This document shows positions 29 through 9,060 of a DNA stretch of 9,060 nucleotides, piece after piece (the stretch's first letter is position 1; the number at the start of each line of letters is the position of its first letter). The translations under genes and the position numbers were made by a program. The stretch is taken from assembly GCA_024278345.1 (NCBI GenBank), contig JAJRTK010000471.1, forward strand, positions 1 through 9,060, given 5' to 3'. The DNA comes from a bacterium. GTDB lineage: Bacteria; CSSED10-310; JAJRTK01. The notes beneath the pieces were generated by a model that saw nothing but the letters and a program-made list of their open reading frames with translations, searched no databases and was not told the DNA's origin.

Positions 29-36
29 GTTTTCTG
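29..36. repeat. Left copy of 8-bp target-site duplication
   Basis: GTTTTCTG directly abuts the left terminal inverted repeat. The same eight bases directly abut the right one at 238-245. The right copy lies in the coding frame of the interrupted minus-strand gene, where it encodes Glu-Asn and part of the preceding Ala codon. Confidence 0.8.
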
Positions 37-237
37 GGCCTCGGTCATGGTACCGGCCACCCGAAAAAAGCGCGCAGCGCACAAAGATGTGGGTCCAGGG
101 AGCGGGCTCCCTGGCGTGGGTCTGGGAGCGGCGCTCCCAGCGGAGGTCCGGAGGCAGAGCCTCCGCCGGGTTCCAGGGCTGGAAGCCCTGGGGCGGCGTC
201 TGAAATCTGCACCGTGGCCGGTACCATGACCGAGGCC
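37..237. mobile_element. MITE-like element, 201 bp, with 24-bp perfect terminal inverted repeats
   Basis: The outer 24 bases at 37-60 (beginning GGCCTCGGTCAT) are the exact reverse complement of 214-237. Immediately outside lies an identical 8-base direct repeat, GTTTTCTG, at 29-36 and 238-245, which is the signature of transposition with an 8-bp target duplication. The element is far too short to encode a transposase and no transposase is visible in the window, so it would have to be mobilised in trans. Several IS families make 8-bp duplications, including ISL3, IS1595 and IS66, and the GG ends alone do not choose among them. The interior is a row of four hairpins, listed separately. The perfect ends and intact duplication suggest a fairly recent insertion. 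A chance arrangement of this kind is very unlikely, but its status as a repeat family cannot be shown from one copy. Confidence 0.82.
89..191. repeat. Tandem array of four perfect hairpins inside the MITE
   Basis: Four successive inverted repeats fill the core. Stem arms are 95-102/107-114 (loop 4), 122-129/133-140 (loop 3), 149-155/159-165 (loop 3) and 173-180/184-191 (loop 3). Each arm is 7-8 bp, GC-rich and without mismatch. The stem sequences differ (for example CCAGGGAG, CTGGGAGC, CGGAGGC, CCAGGGCT), yet each stem is preceded by a similar linker of the form GTGGGTC, GGAGGTC or CGGGTTC. The repeat unit is therefore about 25-27 bp. Base pairing is kept while sequence varies, which suggests a structural role in single-stranded DNA or RNA, or repeated duplication of a palindromic unit. 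The function is unknown. Confidence 0.75.
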
Positions 238-245
238 GTTTTCTG
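238..245. repeat. Right copy of 8-bp target-site duplication
   Basis: Exact repeat of the left copy, starting at the base after the right terminal inverted repeat. Deleting 37-245 (209 bp) would regenerate the pre-insertion sequence. Confidence 0.8.
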
Positions 246-380: not shown

Positions 381-433
381 CTGGTTTCGTCGGAAGTTCG
401 CGGGTTGCGGTGAACACCTGTTGGAGAAGGATC

Positions 434-1090
434 GTGGAAGCTCCCTGGAAGGCCCGGTGCCTCAAGATGGTGAAGCAACAGATTGCCCGGCGAGGCATCG
501 CCCGGCGAGTCGTCCTTGATGCCATGGAATCGGTTCCGCGCCACCTCTTCATGCCCCAGGATCTTCGTCACCTTGCGTACGAGGATCGGGCCGTTCCAAT
601 CGGTGGTGGCCAGACCATTTCCCAGCCCTACATCGTCGCCTTTATGACCGATGTCCTGGAATTGACAGGCAAGGAACGGGTGCTGGAGGTGGGAACAGGC
701 TCCGGATACCAGACCGCGATTCTGGCCGAAATCGTTCCAGAGCTCTACAGCCTGGAAATTCGGCCCGATCTCGCCGCCAGGGCCCGAAAACTCTTGGAAA
801 GACTCGGCTACGAAAACGTGCGGCTGCGGGTTGGCGATGGTTCCCGCGGTTGGCCGGAGGCGGCACCTTTCCATCGGATTATCGTCACCGCCGCGCCAGA
901 ATCCGTGCCACCGGCTCTCGTGGAACAACTTGCCGAAGGCGGCGCGATGATTATTCCCGTGGGCCGCGACGACCAAGAGCTTGAGTTATCCTGGAAAAAA
1001 AATGGGAAGATGGTGGTTCGCGGGATCCTTCCGGTCCGCTTTGTGCCCATGGCGGGATCCGCCGGTTCTCTAGGAGGTTCCAGGTTTTGA
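434..1090 (+). CDS. pcm: Protein-L-isoaspartate O-methyltransferase
   Basis: This is a cytosolic repair enzyme that uses S-adenosylmethionine to methylate abnormal L-isoaspartyl residues in aged proteins, starting their return to normal aspartyl linkages. The 218-residue product has the full family layout: an N-terminal helix with VKQQIARRGI and VPRHLFMP (about 13-41), the substrate-site motif IGGGQTISQPYIV (56-68), SAM motif I LEVGTGSGYQ (84-93), VGDGSRGW (133-140), and the strand region FHRIIVTAA (146-154) followed by a glycine turn and IIPVG. I prefer the GTG at 434 because GGAGAAGG at 423-430 is well spaced before it and the length fits the family. An in-frame GTG at 410 and an ATG at 467 are alternatives; the ATG would cut into the conserved N-terminal helix. 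The stop overlaps the next gene by four bases. Identification is confident from the motifs. Confidence 0.95.
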   Translation: MEAPWKARCLKMVKQQIARRGIARRVVLDAMESVPRHLFMPQDLRHLAYEDRAVPIGGGQTISQPYIVAFMTDVLELTGKERVLEVGTGSGYQTAILAEIVPELYSLEIRPDLAARARKLLERLGYENVRLRVGDGSRGWPEAAPFHRIIVTAAPESVPPALVEQLAEGGAMIIPVGRDDQELELSWKKNGKMVVRGILPVRFVPMAGSAGSLGGSRF

Positions 1091-1618: not shown

Positions 1619-2356
1619 ATGGCCAAGAAGAAATCTGGTCTGAGCAGCAAGGATGTCACCGAGAAGCTCAAGGAGCTCGAGCTTCAGATGAAACGGCTTG
1701 GCAACCTCTATAACCAGTATCTGTCAGGGCAGCGGAAACGGCCGCCAAACCACGAGCAAATGAAGGTGGAACGAATGATCCGAACCTTCATTCAGGAACC
1801 GATCCAGAACGTGGGTCTCCGTTTCCGCTTTCTCAATTTGTCCGCCACTTACAACACGATGAAGACCCTCTGGAACCGGAAGGCGGAGGAGATGCTGTCC
1901 GGCGGAAAATCCAGGGCGTCAAGTCGTGTCCAACGCTTCAGCAAGAAGCGGGTTGCCAGGTTTATGGGGAGTGGCCGCTCCTCGCGGGACTCTTTCACCC
2001 GGCGGCGGCCCGGGCGCAAGACCGCGCAGGAGACGAAAGAGAAGGCCGCGCCGGAAAAAACGGCGGACCAACAACCTGAAACCGCTGCCCCGGCCGAAAG
2101 CAAAACTCCGGCGACCGCGGCCGCACAGGCCCGCCCTCGGTCAGGCGGCGGGATCGACCGGCTCTTTCAGAGCTTGACCGACCACCAAAAATCCCGGGGA
2201 CAGGCGCCAACCTTCCAATCGCCTGATCAACTTCGACGTTATCTTGCTCAACAGAAAGCCAAGATCCAGAAGCAGACCGGTGTTCAGAACATCCAGCTCA
2301 AGGTGAGGCTTGAGGGTGGCAAACTGAAGATCAAGGCCAAACGGCGTGGAGCGTGA
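1619..2356 (+). CDS. MXAN_5187-like protein of unknown function
   Basis: The 245-residue soluble protein has three parts. Residues 13-95 form a helical segment with a heptad-like start and the recognisable pattern LYNQYLSGQRKRPP ... IQNVGLRFRFLNLSATYNTMKTLWNR. Residues about 97-175 are a low-complexity linker that is basic at first, then rich in Ala, Pro, Lys and Glu. Residues 178-245 are a compact C-terminal module ending in a strand pair, VQNIQLKVRLEGGKLKIKAK. From memory this matches the region named after Myxococcus xanthus MXAN_5187: a helical segment with N-x-x-L-R-F-R-F and YNT..xxWNR, and a C-terminal module ending with a beta-hairpin. The molecular role of that family is not established. 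There is no signal peptide or membrane span. The stop overlaps the start of the membrane-protein gene by four bases (GTGA), implying coupling. The high lysine/arginine content would allow nucleic-acid or acidic-polymer binding, but this is speculation. Confidence 0.8.
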   Translation: MAKKKSGLSSKDVTEKLKELELQMKRLGNLYNQYLSGQRKRPPNHEQMKVERMIRTFIQEPIQNVGLRFRFLNLSATYNTMKTLWNRKAEEMLSGGKSRASSRVQRFSKKRVARFMGSGRSSRDSFTRRRPGRKTAQETKEKAAPEKTADQQPETAAPAESKTPATAAAQARPRSGGGIDRLFQSLTDHQKSRGQAPTFQSPDQLRRYLAQQKAKIQKQTGVQNIQLKVRLEGGKLKIKAKRRGA

Positions 2357-4782
2357 GACTGCGGTGGAGGGCAATGCTGTCCACTCGGTGGCTGTTAGTT
2401 CTGGAGTTCTCGAGCCTGGCGCCGCTCCTGGGGAGACAGCTTCTGCCCCTTGGACCCCATTGGCTTTCCATCATGGTTGGCTTCGCGGCCTCAGGCTGCG
2501 TCGGGTGGGCACTGGTTTGGGGAGCGAAGCGGCTCTTGCTGCCCCACAAGACGGGCCCTCTGCCAGGCTGCCCGGATCCAGCGGCTGACCCGCGCCAAGC
2601 AGAGCGGGAGGCCTTCGAATCGCTGATGAGGCACTGCCTGTTTCCTCTGCTCTTGCTGGTTCCCGCCGCTTTCCTCCATTTCACGGCTCCCGCGGATCTC
2701 GGGTTGGCCCTGGAATGTCTGGCTTTCGTTGCCGTTTTCCTTCGCCTGGCTGATCTGGTCCAGGATTCATCGCCCATTCTTCGCCGACCGCGGGCCTTTT
2801 TGTTGGGCCTTGCCCTCCTGGCCTCGGCGGCGTTGGCAGGCTCACTTCTGGCCGAGCACAACCCGCTCACCGGAGACGAGCCCGCCTACCTGGTGATGGC
2901 ATCAAGTCTTATTCGGGACCTGGATTTGGACGTTGGGAACAACTACCGTCAGCGGGATTACAGGGAGTTCGGGGTGGATTCCTATCCGACATTCGCCCAC
3001 CGCGGCACCGGAGGGCGTTTCTATCCCCATCACGGCGCCGGCCTGGGGCTTCTTCTCGCTCCAGTGCTGCCGATAGCTTCCTTTCTGGAGCGCAGGGTTG
3101 GCATGGGTTGGGGGATCTTCCTTCTGCGGTTGATCCCCGGTTGCCTGTTGGGACTCTACCTCATGGTGGCCTTTGATTTGTCCCGTGCGCTGGGAGCCAG
3201 GAAACGTCCGGCTTTTGGCGTCGCCGTGGCATTTGGGCTTTCCTGCCCCCTCCTCTTCTATTCCACGCAGCTCTACCCGGATTTGCCGGCGGGGCTGATG
3301 CTCGGGTGGCTCGCACTCCTTTGGGTTCGCCTGGCCAGGGTGCGTGATCCTGATGAAAGAGCCACCTTGCCGCTCTTGGCAATGTCGGCATCTCTGGCGA
3401 TGCTTCCACTTTTAGGGGTGAAGTTTCTATTGCCGGGAGGGCTCTTGGGGATGGGTCTGCTCTGGCGCTTTTGGCGGCGCCAGGATCCCCGTGGACTGGT
3501 TTGGGCCTTGGCCGGTGGCATTGTGGGGTGTACCGCCTTTTTCTGGCTGCTCGGCAGCCAGACAGGAACCTTTTCCCCAGCCGCCGCTTTCGGCGGGGCG
3601 AAAGCGGCCACCCAGGGCGGCGGACTGCTAGGCCACTTCGCCGCCGGGATGGGAGCACGCCTCCGATTCGTGCCCTGGTGGCTGTTCGGGTACCTGATGG
3701 ATCAGAGGACGGGCCTCTTTTTTCTCGCCCCCTTCATGGGGCTGGGTATAGCGGGACTCTTCCGGAATGGATCCAGGGACCGGTCATCGGTGGCCGCCAA
3801 AGCAGCCAACGATGACCGAGGCCAAGGATCCTCATCCCAATGGTTCTTGCTTCTCATCGCTGGTTCCTACATGCTGGTCTATGCCTACCACCTGGACTGG
3901 GGAGGCCGCTGTCCACCGGGAAGGCCCATGGTGGGCGTCCTCTGGTCGACCGCGCCCTTTGTCGCCCTGGGGATCGGATTGGTTCCAGCCTGGGGACGCA
4001 GAATCTTGTTTGGACTCTCAGGGCTCATCTCCCTGGCCTATGCACTGGACCACAAGACCCTTTTTCTTCACTTGCACCCCAACGCCCAATCCGAGTTCTC
4101 CCCGCTCCTCCAGAATCTGAGTCTTCCGCGGCTCCCCCTTGCCAAGCTGGCACCGTTCGTCTCCGTCGATCACACTTGGACCGTGGGAAACAGTGTCGGC
4201 TTGCTTCTGCTGGCAGCCTTGGCGGGCTGGTGTTGGAGGCTTGCCGCCCGCCCCTCGTCGCTTGCTGTAGGGAAGGGACGTTTCTTTGGCGTGTGCCCGG
4301 AAACAAGGGCTAGGAGCTCTTTCGCCGCTAGGTCTCTGGCGCTTCCACTTCTCGCGGCAGCCACGATCATCTGGGGCCTCCAGATCAACCCAGAATCCCG
4401 CCTCCAACCCCTCGTGGCGCAAGATCCAGACTGCGGCCGGGTTCTGACCGGCGGCGGGGCTCTCTGGCGGGATGGTTGGGTTCCGCCGCGCCTGTGGTGG
4501 TCTTTCTGGGTCCGCTTGGATTCCCCGGCGTCCCTCCAATTCACTGCGTTGCAGTCCACGATGGCTTGCATTCGCGGGCGCCGGCTCCATCGGCGCCTCG
4601 ACCTTGACCCGGCCTCCCCGCGGGAGGTTCAGCTCCCCGATTCTTGGATCGGGCGCCTAGAACGGTTAGAGATCTGGGTGGAGGCCGGAGTCGTTCCGGC
4701 TCTTCTCTCAAGATCCCCGGACAAACGAAATCTAGGTGCCCGGATCGCGCTCCGCTGCCATGAGGATCCAGGTTCGAGATGA
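2353..4782 (+). CDS. Multi-spanning membrane protein, probable GT-C-type glycosyltransferase
   Basis: The 809-residue protein has many hydrophobic helices (roughly 12-60, 94-165, 226-330, 338-400, 440-470, 496-570, 610-630 and 660-677) and a soluble C-terminal tail of about 130 residues. After the early helices comes LTGDEPAYLVMASSLIRDLDLD (172-193, motif core GDEP at 174-177), then NNYRQRDYREF. The acidic DE pair in the first large extracytoplasmic loop, followed by a helix, is the hallmark position of the GT-C fold, which transfers sugars from polyprenyl-phosphate donors on the outer face of the membrane. A later DWGGRCPPGRPM (515-526) resembles the GG..GPR loop seen in related uncharacterised proteins. 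The C-terminal tail (about 680-809) looks beta-rich and might bind carbohydrate. The GTG at 2353 overlaps the upstream stop; an ATG at 2374 is an alternative start. Substrate and acceptor are unknown. The membrane topology is secure, the enzymatic call moderate. Confidence 0.75.
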   Translation: MRLRWRAMLSTRWLLVLEFSSLAPLLGRQLLPLGPHWLSIMVGFAASGCVGWALVWGAKRLLLPHKTGPLPGCPDPAADPRQAEREAFESLMRHCLFPLLLLVPAAFLHFTAPADLGLALECLAFVAVFLRLADLVQDSSPILRRPRAFLLGLALLASAALAGSLLAEHNPLTGDEPAYLVMASSLIRDLDLDVGNNYRQRDYREFGVDSYPTFAHRGTGGRFYPHHGAGLGLLLAPVLPIASFLERRVGMGWGIFLLRLIPGCLLGLYLMVAFDLSRALGARKRPAFGVAVAFGLSCPLLFYSTQLYPDLPAGLMLGWLALLWVRLARVRDPDERATLPLLAMSASLAMLPLLGVKFLLPGGLLGMGLLWRFWRRQDPRGLVWALAGGIVGCTAFFWLLGSQTGTFSPAAAFGGAKAATQGGGLLGHFAAGMGARLRFVPWWLFGYLMDQRTGLFFLAPFMGLGIAGLFRNGSRDRSSVAAKAANDDRGQGSSSQWFLLLIAGSYMLVYAYHLDWGGRCPPGRPMVGVLWSTAPFVALGIGLVPAWGRRILFGLSGLISLAYALDHKTLFLHLHPNAQSEFSPLLQNLSLPRLPLAKLAPFVSVDHTWTVGNSVGLLLLAALAGWCWRLAARPSSLAVGKGRFFGVCPETRARSSFAARSLALPLLAAATIIWGLQINPESRLQPLVAQDPDCGRVLTGGGALWRDGWVPPRLWWSFWVRLDSPASLQFTALQSTMACIRGRRLHRRLDLDPASPREVQLPDSWIGRLERLEIWVEAGVVPALLSRSPDKRNLGARIALRCHEDPGSR

Positions 4783-7026: not shown

Positions 7027-9060
7027 CTAGAGGCTGACTTCGGCTCGACCGTTCGTCAGGACACACTGTCCATCGCTATTCCAGGTTTCGAACTCCACCA
7101 CCTGCACCGACTCGGTGAGCTCGGTCTTCCAGATCCGGGTCTCCAGTTCTTGTCCCGGAAGCACCGGCTTGGAGAAGCGGACTCTGATCCTTTTGAGCTT
7201 TTCGGGACGGCCGTCAGCGATGGTGCCGATGACCGCCTGTGTGGCCATTGCCATGGTGCAGAGGCCGTGAAGAATGATGCCTGGAAGCCCCGCGGCCTTG
7301 GCCACCGCCTCGTCAAGATGGATCGGGTTGTTGTCTCCTGATGCCTCAGCGTAGCGAGTAGCCTGGTCCAGAGCCACCTCGGTCCTGAAAACGCAATCCG
7401 CCTCAGGCCGCTCTTCGGTGCTGAGCTTGTCTTTCTTCTTTTCACCCGGCTTCTTGGGCGCCCGGATGAAGAGCCCCGATTTGGCTTCCACAACCGCCCG
7501 GCCTTCCCGCATGAGGCTCTGCCCAACGGTGACGAGCTGTCCCGAGGACTTGTCCTCAATAGAGAGAATTTCGCCCGTGGGATAGAGGATATCCTTGGGC
7601 CGGACCGTGTCGTGGAGGATCATCTCCTGTTCGCCGTGGACAAGCCTCAAGATGTCCAAGCCGAGCTCCGGATCGCTGGCCACGGGCATCAACAGGTCGT
7701 GGAAGTACCGCACGGCGAAGAGAGGATGAGCCATGATTCCGCCTTCCCGGCTATCATCGAAGAAAGCCGGGTTCTTATCATCCACTGCCGCGGCGTAGGC
7801 CTTCATTTCCCCAGCGGAGGCCAAGATCACGTCGCCACCGTAAAACCGACCGATCATTGCTTTGTTCGCGCCGCTTGGCTCCTCCGAGGATTGCCGTTCC
7901 TCCTCCGCCGCTTTCCGGGCGGCGGCAAAATCGAAAGCGCGGGAAAACTTCATGATGTCGCCAATGTTGTCCACGACGAACTTCCGGGCCATGAACGCCT
8001 TCTGCGGCTCCAGGGTACCACCCAAGATCCCTCCAAGGGTCTCGGCGTCGGTCTTCACCGTGGACGTGGCCTTGCCGTGGAGACCTTTTTTCGCCGAACA
8101 ACTCCCGTCGCCCACGGAAACTGTATAGTCATCCGATCCCGTGACGTGGAAGTGGATCGTCGCCGACCACCCCACGGCTTTCTCTGGCACGAACGCTCTG
8201 GGCAGAAGCCCGAACGCATTTTCGATGGGATCATCGGACGAAACCGGAGGCGCTGGCGTCGAGGCTGCTGCTCCCGCCGGGGCCGCCAATTCCAATTGCT
8301 TCACTTCCGCCGCCACTTTCTTCCGGTCGAAGGCGGTCTGGAATTTCATCATGTCGCCCAACTTATCGACCTTGAGCTTGCCCTTCATGAAGGCGCGCTG
8401 AGGATCCACCGTGCCATCGAACATTCCCACCAACGTCCCCGAATCCGTCTTCACCGTTGACGTCGGAGAGCCTTCGGCTCCCTTGACCACCCGGCAAGCG
8501 CCCGCTTCCACCATGACGGAGTACGTTCCCTTGTCCGCCGTGACAAAGTGGATGTTGGCCTTCCAATTCTTGGCCTTTTCCGCGACGAACGCCTTGGGAA
8601 GCAGCTCCATCACCTGTTGGAGCTTGTCCACTTCGGGTGCCGCCGGAGCCGCGGGACTCGGCCCCGCCGCCGGCGTAGAGGCCCGAGACGCCGCCACCGC
8701 CGCCACCGCCGCCGCCACCTTCTTCCGGTCGAAGGCGGTCTGAAACTTCATCATGTCGCCAAGCTTGTCAATCTTGAGTTTGCCCTGCATAAAGGCGCGT
8801 TGCGGGTCCACGGTACCATCGAACATTCCCACAAGCGTTCCGGAGTCGGTCTTTACCGTGCAAGTCGGTTTGCCCTCGGCGCCTTTCGTTGCATTACAGG
8901 CTCCGCCCTCTACAGAGAGCGAATAGGTCCCCTCGTCGGAAGTGACGAAGTGGATATTTGCTTTCCACGCCCCCGCCTTCGCTGGACGAAACCCCTCCGG
9001 CAACGAAATCATGAGGCTTTCCAACAGGCTGACCTGTGGGGCAACCGGAGCCGCCACCAC
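7027..9060 (-). CDS. Triple SCP-2 / hydratase-2 (MaoC) multidomain protein, 5' end outside window
   Basis: The 677 visible residues contain five domains. Three SCP-2-like sterol/acyl-carrier domains lie at about 11-114, 145-249 and 278-380 (numbering from the window edge), separated by Ala/Pro-rich linkers. Each has a W-x-A-x-I-H-F start, a T-V-K-T-D segment and a GKLK...GD(M/I)MKF end (third copy diverged). A degenerate hot-dog domain (about 400-533) precedes a hydratase-2 domain (about 551-677) with the active-site motif YAEASGDNNPIH (catalytic D576 and H581) and the following GIILHGLCTMA. This motif marks R-specific enoyl-CoA hydratases and the hydratase unit of eukaryotic peroxisomal MFE-2, whose order is dehydrogenase, hydratase-2, SCP-2. 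Here SCP-2 domains come before the hydratase. The frame is open to the right edge, where sequence resembles another linker, so more domains (perhaps a short-chain dehydrogenase) may lie beyond. A GTG at the edge is unlikely to be the start. The thiolase follows. Confidence 0.9.
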   Translation of the reverse strand: MVAAPVAPQVSLLESLMISLPEGFRPAKAGAWKANIHFVTSDEGTYSLSVEGGACNATKGAEGKPTCTVKTDSGTLVGMFDGTVDPQRAFMQGKLKIDKLGDMMKFQTAFDRKKVAAAVAAVAASRASTPAAGPSPAAPAAPEVDKLQQVMELLPKAFVAEKAKNWKANIHFVTADKGTYSVMVEAGACRVVKGAEGSPTSTVKTDSGTLVGMFDGTVDPQRAFMKGKLKVDKLGDMMKFQTAFDRKKVAAEVKQLELAAPAGAAASTPAPPVSSDDPIENAFGLLPRAFVPEKAVGWSATIHFHVTGSDDYTVSVGDGSCSAKKGLHGKATSTVKTDAETLGGILGGTLEPQKAFMARKFVVDNIGDIMKFSRAFDFAAARKAAEEERQSSEEPSGANKAMIGRFYGGDVILASAGEMKAYAAAVDDKNPAFFDDSREGGIMAHPLFAVRYFHDLLMPVASDPELGLDILRLVHGEQEMILHDTVRPKDILYPTGEILSIEDKSSGQLVTVGQSLMREGRAVVEAKSGLFIRAPKKPGEKKKDKLSTEERPEADCVFRTEVALDQATRYAEASGDNNPIHLDEAVAKAAGLPGIILHGLCTMAMATQAVIGTIADGRPEKLKRIRVRFSKPVLPGQELETRIWKTELTESVQVVEFETWNSDGQCVLTNGRAEVSL
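7921..8229 (-). repeat. SCP-2 domain repeat 3 (diverged)
   Basis: Third unit, clearly homologous (WSATIHF, STVKTD, EPQKAFM, GDIMKFSRAFD) but with many replacements relative to units 1 and 2. It lies next to a charged linker rich in Glu and Ser that leads into the hot-dog part. Confidence 0.75.
8314..8628 (-). repeat. SCP-2 domain repeat 2
   Basis: Second unit. It is nearly identical to unit 1 in its C-terminal half (T-V-K-T-D through FDRKKVAA) and offset from the third unit by about 132 codons. Confidence 0.8.
8690..8719. repeat. GCC/ACC triplet repeat in the linker after SCP-2 unit 1
   Basis: Ten consecutive triplets follow the pattern GCCGCCACC, twice exactly and once with an extra GCC. 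In the coding frame they give VAAAVAAVAA, a flexible or helical linker. Slippage here would change linker length without shifting the frame. Confidence 0.7.
8719..9030 (-). repeat. SCP-2 domain repeat 1
   Basis: First visible SCP-2-like unit, offset from the second by 134 codons. It shares long identical peptide blocks with unit 2, including the 24 residues encoded by 8788-8859. Confidence 0.8.

Follow-up and report, generated by a model that had tools for sequence, protein, structure and literature searches.

The 201-bp repeat near the left end of the window is a real, intact, high-copy MITE, and we suggest, with a probability of roughly 0.87, that it was multiplied in trans by a DUF6399 (PF19936) transposase of an IS with the same ends. 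By "the window" we mean the whole stretch of DNA analyzed, a contig of 9,060 bp (C413) of an uncultured bacterium whose genome, the host genome, comprises 6.06 Mb in 550 contigs and is 87.9% complete; among 145 genomes compared, no relative closer than the phylum level was found, and no sister strain with an empty site turned up. The exact ends, the many copies with different 8- or 9-bp duplications, and the ends common to MITEs and DUF6399 genes can be read directly in the sequences. That the DUF6399 protein is the enzyme, and that it acts on the MITE in trans, is the interpretation we regard as most likely. The new part is this link of the MITE to DUF6399 elements: an orphan repeat becomes assigned, and the DUF6399 family gains a likely and testable function.

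An intact MITE upstream of a PCMT gene

The features of the element and its nearest rightward neighbor are as follows (window coordinates):

29–36, unstranded: left 8-bp target-site duplication GTTTTCTG, repeated at the same site on contig C282
37–60, plus strand: left 24-bp terminal inverted repeat, GGCCTCGGTCATGGTACCGGCCAC; the genome has 233 such ends, the control 0
37–237, unstranded: the entire 201-bp MITE, non-autonomous and lacking a transposase gene
70–82, minus strand: short hairpin followed by a T-run, intrinsic-terminator-like, GTGCGCTGCGCGC TTTTTT; weak, 2 found versus 0.8 expected
95–114, plus strand: internal palindromic hairpin 1, CCAGGGAGC..GCTCCCTGG; kept in diverged subfamilies
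122–140, plus strand: internal palindromic hairpin 2, CTGGGAGC...GCTCCCAG
149–165, plus strand: internal palindromic hairpin 3, CGGAGGC...GCCTCCG
173–191, plus strand: internal palindromic hairpin 4, CCAGGGC.....GCCCTGG
214–237, minus strand: right 24-bp terminal inverted repeat, complementary to the left one without a mismatch
238–245, unstranded: right 8-bp target-site duplication GTTTTCTG
410–1090, plus strand: PCMT (protein-L-isoaspartate O-methyltransferase), the nearest gene rightward; PF01135, E 2e-62

The original prediction, which had been made from the letters of the window, proved right on every testable point. The arms at 37–60 and 214–237 are 100% complementary over 24 nt with a spacing of 153 nt, both by direct reading and in a repeat search, as it had claimed; by simple arithmetic, a perfect inverted pair of 24 bp, both arms within 300 bp, is expected ~1e-8 times in 9 kb. 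The perfect 8-bp duplication that it described is likewise there, at 29–36 and 238–245. It had also fixed a 201-bp non-autonomous element to the base, and the other copies indeed stop at identical bases, with differing flanks and duplications, instead of extending beyond 37–237 with the same flanks; the copy on C282 that shares the flanks is the same locus. Open frames within the 201 bp are spurious only. Short, devoid of a transposase gene, and with fixed ends, differing duplications, and a high copy number, the element corresponds to an intact MITE, just as had been proposed. Its single-strand fold is strong (−73.1 versus −44.7 kcal/mol for shuffles, z −8.6) because the inverted ends enclose four internal hairpins.

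The MITE sits in the upstream region of the PCMT gene. Contig C282 ends in the window's own MITE copy (L066 15652–15852), flanks and duplication being the same, so that the two contigs overlap there; the two versions of the shared copy show small differences. On C282, a gene on the minus strand (13687–15465), named by eye as serine/threonine protein kinase-like, starts 186 bp from the MITE. Given the overlap, the MITE site is intergenic, between divergent kinase-like and PCMT genes.

Copy number, target-site duplications, and subfamilies

The 233 ends detected in the host genome (115 + 118, allowing up to three mismatches; the control was the reversed pattern) suggest roughly 115 or more MITE copies. 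The full 201-bp sequence has at least 40 strong matches in the host (~40 being the candidates scored). The first 400 bases of the window found no match among plasmids. We could read both flanks of 35 copies, 32 from the host and three from a second genome, G003, with the window locus counted twice since it lies on two contigs. A perfect 8-bp duplication flanks 13 of them and a perfect 9-bp duplication another six, while 16 have none; when right flanks were shuffled, perfect 8-bp matches averaged 0.4. Further copies with different duplications, which the original prediction had led us to look for, are therefore present, and the 8 bp that it gave as the duplication length stands for most duplicated copies, with 9 bp to be added for some. 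The 16 copies lacking a duplication would be accounted for by recombination among copies or by assembly misjoins. The duplicated letters are 49% G+C, compared with 58% in a genome sample. The mean divergence of main-subfamily copies from their consensus is 2.2%, suggesting that they spread fairly recently. In a set of 100 contigs chosen regardless of the MITE, 31 of 178 contig ends carry it, and MITE ends are often found ~140 bases from the contig end, as would be expected of an assembler stopping at a repeat; the MITE explains in part the frequent assembly breaks of the host genome.

In older subfamilies, ends such as GGCCTCGTCCATCGTTTCGGCCAC and GGCCTTGGTCATCGTTTCGGCCAC form pairs at a distance of 200–204 bp that enclose the four internal hairpins also seen in the window MITE, and several of the elements carry their own 8- or 9-bp duplications. 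In alignment A2, 6–7 sequences show changes on both sides of five end pairs (columns 8, 9, 13, 16, and 17); the two ends thus vary in concert, just as one would predict for sites that a transposase uses as a pair. Conservation of the internal hairpins is strong, with little covariation except at one pair; they may be functional, or simply young. Two elements (L105 1438–1662 and L142 5357–5588) combine one family end with an end of another type, GGCYTCGKYCATCGTTGGTGCCTT, and are flanked by an 8-bp duplication with 0 or 1 mismatch; such hybrids suggest that the essential part of the end is mainly its outer 15 bases.

MITE ends adjoin DUF6399 genes in two related genomes

Matches to the window end with at most three mismatches were found in three of the 145 genomes: the host, G003 (same phylum, other family), and G080 from another phylum. 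The single match in G080 is inside a coding region and was judged to be chance, as were six IMG/VR matches of a degenerate end, all of them single, with neither a partner nor DUF6399. When an older end was used as query, G003 yielded 19 related ends against 0 in the control. One locus in this genome (L193) is a 127-bp element with its own 8-bp duplication, GAGAAAAC, and an interior unlike that of the window MITE. At two others (L202 and L206), a family end continues into the 3' end of a gene that encodes a DUF6399 C-terminus (Pfam PF19936, E 6e-15, above the curated cut-off). Both of these contigs break at the same point within the DUF6399 gene, as at a multi-copy element.

The same association is seen in the host, in decayed DUF6399 genes. 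Contig C80 carries a degenerate DUF6399 C-terminal end, TTAAERFFGSPPTELFEW..., with an internal stop (L079 2668–2784), and C282, the window's neighboring contig, holds another, WLLPRLPLPARPTRSPKKPRRWAA-stop (L066 from base 3, stop codon at 75–77); the latter remnant is short and is tied to the C80 copy by 87% DNA identity over 108 bp. Within about 10–30 bp downstream of both remnants lies a family end, GGCCTTGGTCATAGTACCGACCAC or GGCCTTCGTCATAGTACCGGCCAC, and MITE copies with a closely related end, GGCCTTGGTCATAGTACCGGCCAC, are present. On C36, an N-terminal DUF6399 fragment is interrupted by a family element. In the about 1.6 Mb read of the 6.06 Mb of this genome, which is 87.9% complete and fragmented at MITE repeats, DUF6399 genes occur as remnants only, none of them intact. 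No element that combines good ends with an autonomous size emerged from a scan of 1.34 Mb for core ends plus duplication.

A complete DUF6399 element and its protein

A plasmid search with the G003 fragment led to DUF6399 genes in Candidatus Thiodictyon syntrophicum, Acaryochloris, Crinalium, and Methylomonas. The complete element in Thiodictyon is located as follows:

Plasmid pTs417, NZ_CP020371.1, 366251–368166: DUF6399 (PF19936) element, 1,916 bp, with a 558-aa gene

This element has the ends GGCCTTGATCATAAATCCGGCCAA and GGCCTTGATCATCGTTCCGGCCAC and a perfect 8-bp duplication, GTCCAACC; its boundaries were the clear best inverted-repeat-plus-duplication solution in a scan that made no use of the MITE end. 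It is the one complete DUF6399 element with a clean duplication, whose length of 8 bp is also that found for the MITE. The right end is identical at 23 of 24 positions to older host MITE-type ends, GGCCTTGGTCATCGTTCCGGCCAC (on C22 and C322), and at 20 of 24 to the end of the window MITE. The original prediction had pointed to full-length IS elements with matching ends as a way to the transposase, and this element is one with closely matching ends. It had also supposed that the MITE may belong to an undescribed group, and apparently it does. It had been unable to name an IS family; the evidence points to DUF6399-encoding elements.

Like the host MITE, the Thiodictyon element has a perfect 8-bp duplication and small companions with the same kind of ends. 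Unlike the MITE, it is 1,916 bp long with a gene of its own, its left end is less well kept, and it comes from another phylum; the interiors of the small companions also differ. Two small neighbors share this type of end and are flanked by perfect duplications of 8 bp, GTTGCGCC and CGCACGTG. Across the surrounding region (L226/L257; pTs417 340000–389999), small elements with DUF6399-type ends occur with and without duplications. Two DUF6399 elements from cyanobacteria were also examined; their ends are different, which indicates that the DUF6399 family is varied, and neither shows a clean duplication.

Three full DUF6399 proteins were compared. They are 524–558 aa long, the other two being 24–25% identical to the first, and share the invariant motifs DETF, SD (SD.A.AL), DLFH, and S(S/T)S(S/A)xEGRNG; the Thiodictyon protein has, in addition, a weak N-terminal helix-turn-helix match. 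In these three sequences, the pattern of motifs and helix-turn-helix fits a DDE transposase; candidate D/D/E residues of the Thiodictyon protein are D147, D201 or D221, and E474. Pfam describes DUF6399 as of "unknown function," NCBIfam gives no match above its cut-offs, and neither these two resources nor PHROGs and PADLOC provide a transposase label. We found no solved structural relative of DUF6399, no occurrence in IMG/VR or phage records, and no mention in the literature searched. The IS family may already be named in ISfinder.

We therefore propose a model, built from sequence comparison, in which the MITE consists of two transposase-binding ends around a non-coding hairpin array and is multiplied in the host by a transposase supplied in trans. 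The 24-bp ends (in the family, GGCCTYGKYCATNGTNYCGGCCAC) would be recognized and bound by the DUF6399 protein, which would excise or copy the MITE; insertion into a target with staggered cuts, 8 bp and sometimes 9 bp apart, would then create the duplication. With clearly less assurance, we lean towards a broader reading: DUF6399 proteins would be the transposases of a distinct, unclassified IS family (24-bp ends GGCCTYGRTCAT..., 8–9-bp duplications, at least two phyla), whose MITEs repeatedly took up hairpin arrays and expanded, to more than 100 copies in the host lineage. Genome annotation could then treat DUF6399 genes, together with their MITEs, as mobile elements.

Other explanations for the repeat

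Several IS families (ISL3, IS1595, ISAs1, IS256, and IS66) produce duplications of about 8 bp, and another DDE transposase of the host with such a stagger, belonging to one of these types, could in principle move the MITE. ISL3, IS1595, and an ISAs1-like fragment are present in the host, and one host ISL3 end, GGCTCTTCGCCATCTTTGAGGCC, is loosely like the older MITE end. However, G003 has family ends but no ISL3 match, and the ISL3 transposase gene on C5 was itself split by a MITE copy; we thus consider this explanation improbable. The individual candidates were also rejected as parents on their own terms. The host ISL3 end GGCTCTTCGCCATC... differs from the MITE end; the host IS1595 copies begin with GGCTCTATATGCGATCC and the ISAs1 fragment on C373 ends with CATGGCAATCGCATCA (element orientation; boundary placed by eye), both unlike the MITE; and neither IS256 nor IS66 has a match in the host genome at its 87.9% completeness. 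The Pfam families rejected as parent were PF01609/ISAs1, PF00872, PF01610, PF12762, and PF03050. Tn3 ends are about 38 bp and Tn3 duplications 5 bp, while the window MITE has 24-bp ends and duplications of 8 or 9 bp, so that an origin as a Tn3-derived TIME, for which 5-bp duplications are expected, was discarded as well.

Slightly less probable still is that the repeat has ceased to be a transposon, or is one only secondarily, and instead is retained as host sequence such as a terminator, an mRNA-end or nucleoid element, or a REP/BIME-like repeat. The conservation of four strong hairpins across subfamilies and the terminator-like hairpin on the minus strand would suit such a role, as would the tendency of duplication-bearing copies to avoid long open frames: 36% of them lie in a frame of at least 250 codons, versus 89% of random sites (n = 14). 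This avoidance, however, is also expected from purifying selection, and the different perfect duplications indicate that the copies arrived by transposition, with both ends changing in concert between subfamilies as paired transposase sites would. A later host role for single MITE copies is conceivable. Finally, an artefact of assembly or binning, with chimeric contig ends, is a very unlikely source of the repeats, although it might be read from their frequency at contig ends (31/178), from the 16 of 35 readable copies without duplication, some of them maybe wrong joins, and from the small differences where C282 and C413 overlap at one copy: high-copy repeats break short-read assemblies, which makes the contig ends a consequence and not a cause, copies with perfect duplications lie inside long contigs (e.g., C249, C287, and C364), and two other genomes contain related elements that bear duplications. 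Multiplication by a DUF6399 transposase remains our preferred reading.

Comparison with known bacterial MITEs

The Correia element and other high-copy bacterial MITEs probably have end sequences and parent families unlike those of the window MITE. They resemble it in size (204 bp for the Correia element), in their inverted ends and direct repeats, in reaching more than 100 copies, and in being mostly intergenic (PMC10969869). Nezha and Chunjie, from cyanobacteria and Geobacter, are bacterial MITEs of similar size (cited in PMC10969869). A similarly massive spread of one MITE is known for the hupL MITE of Candidatus Thiomargarita nelsonii, with matches on 260 of 439 contigs; it has a 10-bp direct repeat and a 19-bp inverted repeat, and its authors found no ISfinder parent and proposed one of PD-(D/E)XK type (PMC4853749). 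TIMEs, the miniature elements derived from Tn3, are also short, non-autonomous, and moved in trans (PMC4133298).

Additional observations in the host and in the window

In the host, one MITE copy (L115, on G000:C32) contains the 3' end of a group II intron at 19–97 (Rfam Intron_gpII, 58 bits). The MITE end is at 130–153, and the intron 3' end adjoins the position expected for the hairpin array; it appears that a group II intron took the MITE as its target on C32. The host also has a separate recurrent repeat, GAGCTGGCTCCCTGGTGGGGGC...GACCGCCAAGCGGAGCGAGGCGTTGCCC, which is rich in hairpins and lacks MITE ends (L061 1001–1110 and L062 1090–1190).

In the window itself, ~47 bp at 3780–3826, within an 809-aa frame (2353–4782), resemble two back-to-back family ends, GGACCGGTCATCGGTGGCCGCC / GGCCTCGGTCATCGTTGGCTGC, and leave the frame unbroken; this is perhaps a minimal, decayed in-frame element. 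Further to the right, 7027–9060 on the minus strand encodes a single protein in which a MaoC-like hydratase region accompanies three SCP2 domains, and a 183-nt direct repeat at 8302/8704 falls in its SCP2 part.
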